Source: Tenrec ecaudatus
Taxonomy: Eukaryota > Chordata > Mammalia > Afrosoricida > Tenrecidae
DNA length: 64,000 bases
Direction: 5' to 3'
Assembly: GCF_050624435.1 (NCBI RefSeq)
Contig: NC_134540.1
Location: 105,367,739-105,431,738, forward strand
Shown: positions 3,913 through 45,600 of the stretch, one piece after another
How positions within the stretch are numbered: the stretch's first letter is position 1
Layout of the letters: each line of letters opens with the position of its first letter
Position numbers and translations under genes: made by a program
Notes under the pieces: model-generated
What the model saw: only the letters and a program-made list of their open reading frames with translations
What the model was told of the DNA's origin: nothing
Databases searched by the model: none

Positions 3913-5297
3913 TAGTTAAGATGTCAGTTCTGCCTAAGGCACTATATAAATTTAATGCAATCCTGATACAATTACCCTCATCTTTCTTCAAAGAAATGGA
4001 AAAACTGATTACGAACCTCATATGGAGAGGGAAGAAGCCCAGAAATAGCAGAGAACTCCTCAAGAAGAAGGACACCGTGGGAGGGCTTGCTTTACCTGAC
4101 TGGCACATACTATGCAGCCACAGTAGTCAAAACTGCATGGTATTGGTACAATGACAGCTACTCAGATCAATGGAAAAGAACTGAAAACCCAGAAATAAAG
4201 GCATCAGCATATAGACAACTGATCTTTGATAAGGGCCCCCCAAATGTCAAATGGGAAGCAGATGCCCTCTTTAACAAGTGGTGCTGAAAAAAATGGATAT
4301 TTACCTGCAGAAAAATGAAGCAAGACCCTTATCTCACTCCATGCACAAGAATAAACTCAAGGTGGATCACAGACCTTGAAGTTAACCCCCAAACTATTAG
4401 GGCCATCAATGAGGGAATTGGAGCCAACTTGAGAACTTTGGCGCAGGGAATACACAGGCTATCAGAAATAGGGAAGGACACAAACACAGAGGAGGCACAA
4501 ATTGACAAATGGATATACTGAAGATAAAACACCTGTGTACATTGAAAGAATTCACCAAGAGAGTAATAAGAGAGTCCACAGACTGGGAAAACATCTTTAG
4601 CAATAACTCATCAGACAAAGGCCTTATTACTAAAATCTACAACACTCTGCTAGCTTCCAAAAAGAAAAAAACTAATGGCCCACTTGAGAGGTGGGCAAAG
4701 GACTTGAACAGAAGTTTCACAGGGGCAGAAATCCGAATGGCCAACAAACATATGAGAAAATGTTCCCGATCTTTAGCCATAAGAGAAATGCAAATTAAAA
4801 CAACAATGAGGTACCAACTAACACCCTCAAAGGTAGCCCAATTCAAAAAATCAGAAAGCAAGTGTTGGAGGGGCTGTGGAGAGACAGGAACTCTCATCCA
4901 TTGCTGGTGGACTTGTAAGTATTTATAGCCACTATGGAAATTGATCTGGTGATACCTAAAACAGATGGAAATAGAGTTACCATATGACCCAGCAATCCCC
5001 CTACTGGGCATACACCCAGAAGAAGCAAGAAACAGACCAAGGCCAGACATCTGTGCTCCAATGTTCATTGTGGCACAGTTCACAATTGCAAGGAGCTGGA
5101 AGCAACCCAAATTTCCATCAACTGATAATTGGATTAAAAAACTGTGGTATATACATACAATGGAATACTACACATCACTAAAAAGCAGTGATGAACGTAT
5201 GAGGCACATAGCGGCATGGGAAGAACTGGAGGAAATCATGCTAAGCGAAGTAAGTCAGGCAAAAAAGGACAAGTACAACATGAGCCCGCTGAGGTAA
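3913..5297 (+). pseudogene. L1 ORF2 C-terminal part, broken
   Basis: Translation in shifting frames gives the C-terminal third of an L1 ORF2 protein (end of the reverse transcriptase and the cysteine-rich C-terminus). Recognisable elements are the 'LPSSFFKEMEK' area, the '[17 protein letters not shown]' zinc-knuckle-like area, the 'YDPAIPLLGI' area and the 'WIKKLWYIHTMEYY' area, ending with the stop at 5295-5297. Several stops and frame changes break it, and the endonuclease and most of the RT domain are missing. It cannot encode an active protein. Confidence 0.85.
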
Positions 5298-12956: not shown

Positions 12957-13744
<788 letters not shown>

Positions 13745-15376: not shown

Positions 15377-15378
15377 AG
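15377..15378 (+). promoter_or_regulatory. Predicted 3' splice site of receptor coding exon
   Basis: A C/T-rich tract ends in 'ccctgccag|gaatctc', and the likely start codon follows 13 bases later. Human GPR183 also has a non-coding first exon and begins its coding sequence just inside the second. This is an inference from sequence, not from a transcript. Confidence 0.55.
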
Positions 15379-15391
15379 GAATCTCTCTGAG

Positions 15392-16450
15392 ATGGCTTCC
15401 AATGAGACTAACTCAACCACCCTCTGCCTTTCTCACCTACCACCCAGGGCCGCCAGCCTGGGGCTCGCTCTGTTCTACACGGCCCTCTTGGTCTTCAGTG
15501 CCTTGGGCAACAGCCTGGCCCTTGCCCTCGCCTGCCCGAAGCGGGAGAGGATCAGCTCAACAGGCATCTACGTGGTGCACCTGGCAGTGTCTGACCTCCT
15601 GTTCACGTTGGCCCTGCCCGGGAAGATCACCTACTACACCCTGGAGAGCAGCTGGCCTTTTGGAGACGGGTTCTGCAGGCTGACGGCTTTCATATTCTAC
15701 CTGAACACCTACGGGGGCGTCTACCTCATGACGTGTGTGAGCGTGGACCGCTACCTGGCTGTGGTCCGCGGTCACCGGTGTCCGCAGCTCCGCCAGGCTG
15801 GCCGAGCACGGCGGGTCTGTGCCATTGTCTGGGCCCTGGCGCTGCTGCAGACGGGCCCCTTGCTCTTCCAGCCCATGACCAAGACCGTGGAAGGCAAGGT
15901 GACCTGCATGGAATATGCCAGCGTGGAGCACACCCTCAGCCTGCCTCTCTGGGTCCTACTGGCCTGTGCTCTTAGCTTCTGCGGGCCAATGGGGATTATA
16001 TTATTTTGTTATGTGCAGACCACCTTGAAGCTGTGTCGGACGGCCCGAGCAAACCCCCTGACGAGCAAGAGCGGACACCACCGCAGGGCCTGCCTGCTCA
16101 TTCTGGGGGTGCTGGTTGCTGTGGTGGTGTGCTTCAGCCCCTACCACATCAACCTTATCCAGTTCATGCTGCGGCAGCTGCTCCATCCCTCCTCCTGCGC
16201 AGAGCAGGAAGCGTTCAAACTCTCTCTTCAGGTCACGGTGTCCCTCATGAATATGAACTGCTGCATTGACCCCGTCATCTACTTCTTTGCATGTAAAGGT
16301 TATAGGAGATGGCTTCTCAGCATTTTAAAATTCAGACTGGCAGCATCGTCCTCTTCTTCAGGGAAAGCTTCCTCAGAAACCCCAAACATCAACCAGACAG
16401 TAGGCTCCGTGCCCCTAGAGGAGAGCAAGGCCGAACGCATCCTTGGCTAG
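15392..16450 (+). CDS. EBI2/GPR183-like class A GPCR, single coding exon, 352 aa
   Basis: Intact seven-transmembrane receptor of the rhodopsin class, P2Y-like/EBI2 group. Landmarks: two N-glycosylation sites (N4, N7); TM1 GN (N40); TM2 'LAVSDLL' (D68); TM3 C95 paired with C172 in ECL2 'TCMEY'; D119-R120-Y121; TM4 W147; TM6 'CFSPYH' (P250); TM7 'DPVIY' (293-297); helix 8 'FFACKGYRRW'; Ser-rich tail 318-328. Similarity to GPR183 is strongest in TM2-TM3, ICL3 'NPLT.KSG' and TM7, about half identical by eye over the core. Oxysterol contacts Y112, Y116 and Y260 of human EBI2 correspond to Y103, Y107 and Y251 here, while R87 corresponds to K78. ICL2 lacks the usual proline after DRY. I prefer the ATG at 15392 because the in-frame ATG at 15362 lies upstream of a good splice acceptor, and because 'MASN' aligns with 'MANN' in GPR183. 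Probable plasma-membrane receptor, possibly for oxysterols. The alternative is true GPR183, which seems too diverged. The GC-rich coding sequence has no disruptions. Confidence 0.9.
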   Translation: MASNETNSTTLCLSHLPPRAASLGLALFYTALLVFSALGNSLALALACPKRERISSTGIYVVHLAVSDLLFTLALPGKITYYTLESSWPFGDGFCRLTAFIFYLNTYGGVYLMTCVSVDRYLAVVRGHRCPQLRQAGRARRVCAIVWALALLQTGPLLFQPMTKTVEGKVTCMEYASVEHTLSLPLWVLLACALSFCGPMGIILFCYVQTTLKLCRTARANPLTSKSGHHRRACLLILGVLVAVVVCFSPYHINLIQFMLRQLLHPSSCAEQEAFKLSLQVTVSLMNMNCCIDPVIYFFACKGYRRWLLSILKFRLAASSSSSGKASSETPNINQTVGSVPLEESKAERILG

Positions 16451-41378: not shown

Positions 41379-41486
41379 TCAGTGCTGCAGCAGGAAGTTG
41401 GTAGCCATGTTCAGGTCGTTGTTTGATGCTCGCAGGGCTTCCAAAGCATCCCCTCTGGAAAATCCCATCTCCATGAGCCGGGCCAC
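41379..41486 (-). CDS. UBAC2 last coding exon (UBA domain C-terminus)
   Basis: Encodes 35 residues and the stop: starts 'VARLMEMGFSRGDALEAL' and ends 'NNDLNMATNFLLQH'. This is a UBA domain, with the 'MGF' loop that contacts ubiquitin and the second helix 'DALEALRAS'. From memory it matches the C-terminus of UBAC2 almost exactly; the one difference I note is Met where I recall Val in 'NDLNV'. The acceptor on the minus strand is 'ttctgttcccag|gtggcc' at 41486 and the exon starts in phase 0, which fits the donor at 62977. UBAC2 is an ER membrane rhomboid-like pseudoprotease that binds UBXD8 and takes part in ER-associated degradation. The UBA domain faces the cytosol and binds ubiquitin. Confidence 0.97.
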   Translation of the reverse strand: MARLMEMGFSRGDALEALRASNNDLNMATNFLLQH

Positions 41487-42622
41487 CTGGGAACAGAAAC
41501 CAAACCAATCAAGATGTTGACACACGGCCATCTGCCCCTGCATGCAGGACGGCTCCCGGGGCAGCTCCGTGGCTCATGTGGAATGGTCAAAAGTATCACT
41601 GGGAGAAGGGTCAAATCCGCGTAAAAATTAACCAAAGTGCATCTGTTGTTTAAAAAAGTAGAGCGAATAACACTTGTAAGTACTTGCTGTGCCTTAGAGT
41701 TTCAGTTTCACAAGATGTAGTCAATGTATCTGTAGAATCTCACTTCAATGCGCTAGGTGAGGAACTGGGGGTTCCGAGAGCTCAGTTGGCATGCCAGGAT
41801 CCACCTAGTCCTGGGGGGACACGGCAGCCCCACATTCCGGCAGGGCCATGCAGTCTGATTCCTGAGTAACCCAAGAAAATCCTGCTTCCACACACACGTG
41901 GTTACCTGCACTGCTGAAGGGCTATTCTTGATGCAGACACAGATGTGGAAATGCACTTGTAAGTTCTTATCAGAGAGAGAACTTTGAGGCATGCTTATCT
42001 CTTCACAGCTATACCATTTGCTAAGATCCTGTGTGACAAAGATCTCCCCCCTCCTCCCCAGCATTTCTGCAGGCAGCACTGGCCTGCAAAAGTGAAGTGG
42101 GGCTCAGCCTGGGGCCTCAGCCAGGGCAAGGTGGTAGAGCCACGCACCTGGGGGAGACAAAGCTGGGTTTTCCTTGACGATGGATCCTGCATCTGTGCAA
42201 ACCGACATCTCCCATACACCAATGGGCAGTACTAGCCCCCTGCCGCCCTGAGCTGCTCCAAAGGGTGTTGGAGAGAGTCAACCTTACCGGCCCTGTCGGC
42301 CTCGTCTCTCTGCCTGGTCCACGGTGGGGTGCTAAACGCCTTGGGTCACTAGGCTCCTTCACAGGCAGTATTATGAGGGGTGATCTGTAACCTAGTTGCT
42401 CGGAAATTGGTTTCCTACTAAATAGGGCATTTCAAGACTAGCCAAGGTCCCAGAGCAGCGAAGGGAATCACACATCTCATGGCTTTTACAGTTGCTACAG
42501 GACTGTATGTGCTACCGCATTTACCGTACTTGTCCTTGTTCTTGTGAACGAAGTATTTTTTACTGTGAGTTGTGGTCACAAACAGCAACAAGATGTTTTC
42601 TACAAGAATGGCCTGTGCATGT
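41487..42622. other. Unassigned intronic DNA
   Basis: No repeat or gene recognised in this part of the intron. Confidence 0.3.
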
Positions 42623-42640: not shown

Positions 42641-45600
42641 GAGATAAAAAAGGTGGTACCCAAAAGCCAAATACAAATGGAAATATCTAGGGATATACCT
42701 GACTAAAAGAACAAAAGATCTATACAGGGAAAACTACAGAATACTATTACAGGAATCAAGAGCGACCTCAACAAGTGGAAGAAGATCCCACCTCGTGGAT
42801 TGGAAGACTCAATACAGTAAAGATGTCAGTTCTGCAAGTTTAATGCAATTCCAATACAATTACCCTCATCTTTCTTCAAAGAAATGGAAAAACTGATTAC
42901 CAACCTCATATGGAGAGGGAAGAAGCCCAGAAATAGCAGAGAACTCCTCAAGAAGAAGGACACAGTGGGAGAGCTTGCTTTACCTGACTTCAGCACATAC
43001 TATACAGCCACAGTTGTCAAAACTGCATGGTTTTAGTACAATGACAGATACTCAGACCAATGGAAAAGAACTGAAAACCCAGAAATAAAGGCATCAGCAT
43101 ACAGACAACTGATCTTTGATAAGGGCCCCCAAAATATCAAATGGGAAACAGATGCCCTCTTTAACCAGTGGTGCTAGAAAAAATGGATATTTACCTGCAG
43201 AAAAATGAAGCAAGACCCTAACATCACTCCATGCACAAGAATAAACTCAAGGTGGATCACAGACCTTGAAGTTAAACCCCAAACTATTAGGGCCATCAAT
43301 GAGGGAATTGGAGCCAACTTGAGAACTTTGGCGCAGGGAATACACAGGCTATCAGAAATAGGGAAGGACACAAACACAGAGGAGGCACAAATTGACAAAT
43401 GGGATATACTGAAGATAAAACACTTGTGTACATCGAAAGAATTTACCAAGAGAGTAATAAGAGAGTCCACAGACTGGGTAAACATCTTTAGCAATAACTC
43501 ATCAGACAAAGGCCTTATTACTAAAATCTACAACACTCTGCTAGCTTCCAAAAAGAAAAAAAAACTAACAGCCCACTTGAGAGGTGGGCAAAAGACTTGA
43601 ACAGAAGTTTCACAGGGGCAGAAACCCGAATGACCAACAAACATATGAGAAAATGTTCCCGATCTTTAACCATAAGAGAAATGCAAATTAAAACAACAAT
43701 GAGGTACCACCTAACACCCTCAAAGGTAGCCCAATTCAAAAAATCAGAAAGCAAGTGTTGGAGGGTCTGTGGGGAGACAGGAACTCTCATCCACTGCTGG
43801 TGGGCCTGTAAGTATGTACAGCCACTATGGAAATCAATCTGGTGATATCTAAAACAGATGGAAATAGAGTTACCATATGACCCAGCAATCCCCCTACTGG
43901 GCATATACACAGAAGAGGCAAGAAACAAACCAAGGCCAGACATCTGTGCTCCAATGTTCATTGCGGCACAGTTCACAATTGCAAGGAGTTGGAAGCAACC
44001 CAAATTTCCATCAACTGACGATTGGATTAAAAAACTGTGGTATATACATACAATGGAGTACTACGCATCACTAAAAAGCAGTGATGAACGTATGAGGCAC
44101 ATAGCGGCATGGGAAGAACTGGAGGAAATCATGCTAAGCAAAGTAAGTCAGGCACAAAAGGACAAGTACAACATGAGCCCGCTGAGGTAAGTGTTAAAAA
44201 AATGCAAAAGGGGCATAGGGAAAAAGTTACTGTATACAAACATTCTTGGGGTGAGGATCGTGTAGTATGGCAGGGACCAGATCAAATGCAGGGATGCACA
44301 TGGTAGACAACTGGGGAGGAGGTGGGTAAAGGAAAAAAAAGATGAAAATAAGAAAGAAATGGGTAGTGGGGGCACAGGGCGCTAACCCACCCAAGGAGAT
44401 GGTTATTATTTATATCTCCACAGGGAAAGAGGGACCAGACTTCAACCCAGTGCCGCAAGGTGTGAATGCAACATTCCGGCGCAGAGTAGGGAACCAGTGG
44501 AGAGGTCTGGGGGGCTGGCCCAGTACCCAATACTAAGTGGATGCCTGCCCCTCCCCCCAGAAGAATTGTTTTTCAAAGGACAGCATTGATCTGCAGCTCT
44601 TGGAGAGGGACATATCTGATCGGAGCACACAGGATCAGATGAAGGGGGAGTAGAAGAGAGTGGAGCACATCCTGGCCCACCAGGCCTGAAGGACGATGAC
44701 CCTAATTAGAGCAGCCAGTCCACAGAGGGAACCACATGGCCAGCCCCACTATGAGACATGACAGCCCTCACTGACTCATGGCGCTACAGGGGACAGCACC
44801 GGAGACAGTGTGGGAATTGCACCCAACCTGATCCCACCACACCGAGGCAAAGCACTGGGGGAGTGCAGCGGAATAGCAAGGTAATGGAACAACTAAGTCC
44901 CCAGGGAATGCTGAAGGTGGACTTTGGGGGCCAGGACGTGGTGCCCAAACAGACTGGACTGGAAAACACTCCTAAAGGCCAACAAACGATCCTTGAACTA
45001 ACTACAAGCTTTTCTTTCCTGTTGTGTTTTGTTTTGTTCTTTGTCAGTGGTTTGTGGTTGTTTTGTTGTATACTGTTGCTTGGTTTTGCTCTGTCTTGTT
45101 TCTGTGAAGGTTATTATCTCCGCAGGTTTGTCTAAATAAGATAGGCTGGATGAACAAGCTGCAGGAGAAAACAACGGGACCGACAGTTCCGGGGGGACAT
45201 GGTATAGGGGTGGGTGAGGGGAAAGAAAGTGGTGTTAACAAACCAGGAACAAGGGAACAACAAGTGATCCAAATTGGTGGTGAGGTGGGTGTGGGAGGCC
45301 TGGTAAGGCATGATCAAGGGTGATGTAACAAAGAGGTATTGCTGAAACCCAGGTGGGGATGGAGCATGATAGTGGGACAGGAGGAAAGTCAAGGGAAATA
45401 GAGGAAAGAGCTGGGAGGCAAAGGGCATTTATAGAGGTCTAGATAAAGACATGTACATATGCAAATATTTTTATATATGAGTATGGGGGAAATAGAGCTA
45501 TGTGCATATATTTATAGGTTTAGTATTAAGGTAGCAGAAGGACATTGAGCCGCCACTCAAGTACTCTCTCAATGCAAGAATACTTTCTTCTATTAAATGG

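Follow-up and report, generated by a model that had tools for sequence, protein, structure and literature searches.

A stretch of 64,000 nucleotides from the genome of Tenrec ecaudatus (contig NC_134540.1, positions 105,367,739 to 105,431,738; hereafter the window) contains an intact gene for a class A G protein-coupled receptor (GPCR) that resembles GPR183, also called EBI2, a receptor that steers immune cells. The locus raises the question whether this gene is GPR183 itself, a recent copy of it, or an additional EBI2-family paralogue, as a sequence-only reading had proposed. Our analysis identifies the window gene as the orthologue of a vertebrate GPR183-like receptor that is the sister of GPR183/EBI2. 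For the locus as a whole we favor, with a probability of about 0.6, an ancient GPR183-sister receptor that would work like GPR183.

An intact class A receptor gene related to GPR183

The features of the receptor gene, in window coordinates, are:

15379..15391, plus strand: candidate 5' end of the coding exon, a putative 13-nt 5' untranslated region preceded by a splice-acceptor-like site
15392..16450, plus strand: GPR183-like receptor coding exon, 352 amino acids plus stop (open reading frame translation, Pfam, protein search, tree)

Translation of this open reading frame (ORF) gave a 352-residue product with zero internal stops, which matched the full Pfam 7tm_1 domain with 186.6 bits (cut-off 30.5). 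Class A (rhodopsin-like) receptors are marked by D2.50, C3.25 and a cysteine in extracellular loop 2 (ECL2), DRY, CFxP and DPxxY; every one of these motifs is present, with DRY at residues 119–121, CFSPYH at 247–252 and DPVIY at 293–297. The complete class A GPCR and the three motifs described in the sequence-only reading were thus recovered. None of 200 first-order shuffles of the window had an open run as long as the 369 codons seen here; their maximum was 283. Since 500 one-strand shuffles of 21 kb with coding-sequence composition reached 372 codons, ORF length alone is weak evidence for the gene, and we regard homology, rather than length, as decisive for its reality.

A splice-acceptor-like site (pyrimidine tract and CAG) ends at 15378, 13 nt upstream of the ATG, and the orthologue models of camel and pig (P0010, P0026) have, at the homologous point, a junction to an exon further upstream; a 5' exon followed by one coding exon is therefore the likely gene structure. 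No convincing counterpart of that upstream exon was found in the window and its flanks (best E-value 0.41). Both models have a similar extra N-terminal exon ending in LHNHSW; the pig model lacks the usual start methionine, and the orthologue may have an alternative N-terminus. The region near the receptor stop has no poly(A) signal; in the 4 kb 3' of it the only ones were ATTAAA (19260) and AATAAA (19671).

Among solved structures in the PDB, the best relative was human GPR183 (7tuz_R, 306.7 bits), with GPR17 (7y89, 158 bits) as the next receptor, in agreement with the resemblance noticed from the sequence. The identity of about half that had been estimated by eye was slightly too high, as BLAST gave 45% over 312 or 43% over 328 columns depending on the direction. 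In a protein search with the window protein, 7996 candidates were scored and the best 120 of 366 matches were considered, each cluster showing one name. The top matches were annotated GPR183-like (Rhynchocyon 78%, Ceratotherium 72%, camel 70%, bats 65–70%, marmot 65%), and partial models over 44% of the query came from tenrec (89%) and aardvark (81%). Identities outside placentals were 54–58% in marsupials, about 51–57% in turtle, crocodile and birds, and 46–54% in amphibians and fishes. When human GPR183 was the query, the best 120 of 442 matches (at least 61% identity) were canonical GPR183, from chimpanzee to fishes.

Two ancient sister clades

In a tree of 91 rows with GPR17 as outgroup, the 36 canonical GPR183 rows formed one side of a branch (support 97/96), and 51 bony-vertebrate GPR183-like rows, including the window protein, grouped with support 96/91. 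The latter group holds proteins of sengi, bats, camel, marsupials, turtles, frogs and fishes and is separate from the GPR183 clade; ray-finned fishes, coelacanth, lungfish, amphibians, sauropsids and mammals occur in both. Three shark proteins (P0091, P0099, P0102) joined the GPR183-like group weakly (83/40). Sharks carry the typical residues of this clade, either as orthologues or as ancestral states. In a tree of 53 rows canonical GPR183 was recovered with 100/100 and the GPR183-like set needed two changes, so that the root and the placement of the sharks are provisional. Two distinct clade proteins each were seen in coelacanth (P0056, P0116), duck (P0049, P0084) and Megalops (P0083, P0085), as further duplications, alleles or assembly copies.

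If the window gene were the species' own GPR183, fast-evolving or relocated, GPR183 would be expected as its best solved relative, as observed. However, the tenrec genome (3.92 Gb, 2140 contigs) has another, canonical GPR183 of 357 amino acids, 87.5% identical to chimpanzee and 88.2% to sengi GPR183, about 140 kb from the window gene, and the approximately unbiased (AU) test rejected a window protein inside the GPR183 clade (p 7.0e-9). This explanation is thereby ruled out, with practically nothing left in its favor. The position of the two genes on the same contig and in the same orientation would also suit a local copy of GPR183 that arose recently and is specific to mammals or afrotherians, but the AU test rejected both a pair formed by the window protein and the GPR183 of the same genome (p 1.1e-6) and a joint mammalian clade of the two genes, as expected from a mammal-only duplication (p 8.7e-40), and fishes are present in both clades. 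We consider a recent copy excluded to near certainty. The window protein stands with mammalian and other bony-vertebrate GPR183-like proteins, outside the GPR183 clade. Both circumstances under which the sequence-only reading would have reverted to an ordinary GPR183, namely no other GPR183 in the genome and a place inside its clade, are contradicted, and its additional EBI2-family paralogue is borne out; its local duplication holds as a very old, probably tandem event but not as a mammal-specific one.

The linkage of the two genes was compared in 14 species named with contig sizes for both, the size being that of the longest contig of the cluster. Sizes were equal in 11 (Dromiciops, Microcaecilia, Rhinatrema, Discoglossus, Rhinophrynus, Hymenochirus, Protopterus, Amia, Sardina, Scleropages and Cynocephalus; the Protopterus value is a rounded 2 Gb for both genes) and unequal in three (Ascaphus, Xenopus laevis and Conger). 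In Hymenochirus the two genes have consecutive locus tags, GDO86_004011 and GDO86_004012. A duplication, probably tandem and predating the bony-vertebrate split, produced the GPR183-like and GPR183 genes, and the former still lies near UBAC2, GPR183 and GPR18.

Chromosomal neighborhood and other features of the window

On the contig that holds the window (C91), the order of genes is as follows; UBAC2, TM9SF2 and GPR18 were identified with human protein sequences as queries:

near 105248.8 kb, minus strand: TM9SF2 exon, 82% to the human protein
C91:105383130-105384188, plus strand: window receptor gene
about 105409.1 kb, minus strand: UBAC2 3' end
C91:105523010-105524083, plus strand: canonical GPR183
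from 105564124, plus strand: GPR18, 88% to the human protein

Within the window, the UBAC2 exons, with their identity to the human protein, are:

41379..41489, minus strand: last coding exon including the stop (exon 41489-41382, stop codon 41381-41379), 97% over 36 amino acids
62974..63093, minus strand: penultimate coding exon, 79% over 42 columns

Beyond the 3' end of UBAC2, a distance of 24.9 kb separates its stop from that of the receptor, which is encoded on the other strand; this matches the earlier estimate of about 25 kb. In the tenrec genome the window protein matched GPR183 with 310 bits (45%) and the next best locus with 163 bits (34%); no second copy of the window gene occurred among the 115 scored matches. 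A search for RNA families and tRNAs found none in the window. A perfect (AT)48 run occupies 13645-13740, about 1.7 kb upstream of the receptor gene, and two related ORFs (4509-4928 and 43205-43600) are presumably LINE-1 ORF2 remnants, recognized by eye.

Ligand pocket and predicted function

Residues required for 7alpha,25-dihydroxycholesterol in GPR183 were taken from the relevant passages of two reviews (PMC4209795; PMC4371701, which prints His216, taken here as His261); N114 was later described as part of an allosteric metal site, in a passage of PMC8391951. The window protein keeps eight of the 11 ligand residues (Y112, N114, Y116, E183, Y260, H261, V294 and M297) and differs at three (R87K, L197V, I264L). 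The 11 residues were better kept than matched controls of rising strictness (p 0.005, 0.013 and 0.034). Relative to the strictest control, however, the excess was not significant (p 0.12).

Residues across the clade were counted in 113 of the best 120 proteins, three sharks and four proteins below 300 residues being excluded. Position 87 was R in 75, K in 36 and T in two of them, and R in 120 of 120 GPR183 rows. Among placentals, K was found in 26 of 27 chosen rows, which did not include lagomorphs, tamarin, porpoise, gundi, mole-rat and some others. A wider choice, made up of the window protein and 27 named rows among the best 120 (unnamed placental rows and short models excluded), had K in 24 of 28. 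Relative to the 120 GPR183 rows, typical changes of the clade were F130Y (110/113), H291Q (111/113) and Q287K (99/113). Some of these states may be ancestral, as sharks share states of the F130Y, H291Q and Q287K type. At the clade-typical L70, A74, Y130, K287 and Q291 (GPR183 numbering) the window protein has V61, A65, Y121, K276 and Q280, four of five being exact.

An AlphaFold2 model of the window protein, built on a 37-row alignment, had a mean predicted local distance difference test score of 81.9 and a predicted template modeling score of 0.75. Its first Foldseek match was oxysterol-bound GPR183 (7tuz; 45% identity, root-mean-square deviation 2.2), while VIA-align placed GPR183 level with OXGR1, PAR1 and P2RY8; the modeled fold thus supports a class A receptor but not any particular ligand.

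The receptor would act like GPR183: a class A GPCR at the plasma membrane, it would bind a small lipid within its helical bundle, probably signal through Gi, and direct or adjust the migration of cells, probably immune ones. A functional Gi-type receptor in Tenrec is fairly likely, and an immune role is probable. Its likeliest predicted function is to couple to Gi in response to a lipid, perhaps a sterol, with a ligand preference that has shifted. A hydroxylated sterol is suggested by the retained residues for oxysterol binding, and the shift by R87K in placentals together with the nearly clade-wide Q287K and H291Q. An oxysterol or a close sterol as the ligand is a tentative proposal, to which we would give somewhat less than an even chance.

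A working receptor for a different class of ligand (another lipid, a nucleotide, a small acid or a peptide) has to be weighed against this proposal. The residue R87, invariant in GPR183, is K in most placental rows, H291 and Q287 are replaced almost throughout the clade, and this fold serves receptors for a wide variety of ligands. R87K, however, preserves the charge, R87 itself is retained in about two-thirds of the clade, and the complete set of Y112, N114, Y116, E183, Y260 and H261 is found in the window protein and in 21 of the 28 placental rows. A non-oxysterol ligand is quite conceivable, if a little short of an even bet.

Constraint and possible loss in mammals

The sister receptor that we favor could also be disappearing, its frame being intact here by luck or under weak constraint and the gene largely non-functional in placentals. 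Judged by tree path lengths, the window gene evolves over twice as fast as GPR183 (0.295 versus 0.131 to sengi, 0.823 versus 0.299 to Dromiciops). A core residue or motif is lost in six of the 28 placental rows: pig has DRS, Sturnira DCY, rabbit H at D2.50 and DCY, hare H at D2.50, pika DHY and RFNP, and in tamarin the region of transmembrane helix (TM) 3 is scrambled. In addition, about 118 internal core residues, fewer in three cases, are missing from nearly the same place in at least 12 placental gene models. Against decay, the other 22 rows keep all checked motifs, none of which is damaged in the window protein. When neutral drift was simulated at 0.15 substitutions per site, indels not being counted, the frame stayed free of stops in 2% of 2000 runs. 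We consider a gene on its way out unlikely.

The skipping models (P0242, P0243, P0244, P0246, P0247, P0248, P0250, P0251, P0254, P0255, P0038 and P0061) lack an in-frame stretch corresponding to window residues of about 154 to 271, typically with the junction LQT|RAFKLSLQ. The aligned donor falls at residue 153-154 in nine of the 12 and the acceptor at 271-272 in 11; the alignment of P0254 is ambiguous, and P0250 is scrambled elsewhere too. The window sequence at the donor point is GG, not GT. Unlike these models, sister species (Ceratotherium, Camelus dromedarius and Marmota) show the full frame. The skipped stretch could be a shared exonic intron or a propagated annotation.

Among the matches listed (the best 120 per search, in which clusters hide the names of their members), none of the proteins named in the clade came from human, another ape, mouse, rat or a carnivore. 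Loss in human and some other mammals, as the sequence-only reading had considered, and in mouse would fit these protein listings, which are suggestive only; the tamarin protein and those of three lagomorphs are damaged. The bony-vertebrate split is more than 400 million years old. A bolder and rather doubtful extension would be that GPR183 has an equally old counterpart in vertebrates, another chemotactic receptor of the EBI2 type that senses sterols, which stayed near GPR183 over that time and was lost in human and mouse, and that placentals may also switch it off post-transcriptionally by a shared in-frame splice in the coding exon, which would remove the end of TM4, ECL2, TM5, TM6 and ECL3.

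Naming and comparison with known receptors

The receptor gene is real and little known, already present in databases and no new kind of system. Database names for the clade are GPR183-like or GPR183. By its taxon list, the clade is very likely the tentative GPR197 (accession ENSLOCP00000021877) that Rinne et al. (2019; PMC6504862) name in one sentence: the list agrees with our clade, whose matches include two coelacanth proteins, platypus and opossum. The passage on GPR197 gives no synteny, ligand or sister relation. No functional study of the GPR183-like gene was found in the open-licence literature by titles and abstract openings, and the earlier description as a poorly described receptor is apt. 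That the receptor is almost unstudied may be explained by human and mouse seeming to lack it. Work on fish or amphibian gpr183 may mix two genes, because both clades share the database name, as do both Xenopus laevis proteins. For comparative immunology, Tenrec has two EBI2-type receptors, whereas human and mouse appear to have one. The oxysterol pocket varies naturally within the clade, which also opens a route to the ligand sensed by the ancestral receptor; the sister relation to GPR183, the age and the largely kept pocket pose a clear, testable question.

A passage of a 2014 review (PMC4209795) states that no receptor is structurally close to EBI2 and names GPR17, at 31%, as the nearest one. 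The GPR183-like clade is clearly closer, at 45% for the window protein and up to about 52% to human GPR183 for some coelacanth, amphibian, crocodile and bird members. With GPR183 (7TUZ, 7TUY) the window receptor shares the class A fold at 43-45% identity, a nearby locus in the same orientation, a splice-acceptor-like site shortly 5' of the ATG, and the six pocket residues from Y112 to H261. It differs by its separate clade, a more than twofold evolution rate, DRY in place of DRF, and R87K (placentals), Q287K and H291Q; the oxysterol ligand belongs to GPR183, while that of the window receptor is predicted. GPR17, a class A relative and the next receptor in the PDB search, is about 33% identical to the window protein, and GPR18, which shares its neighborhood (C91:105564124 onward), is 26% identical.
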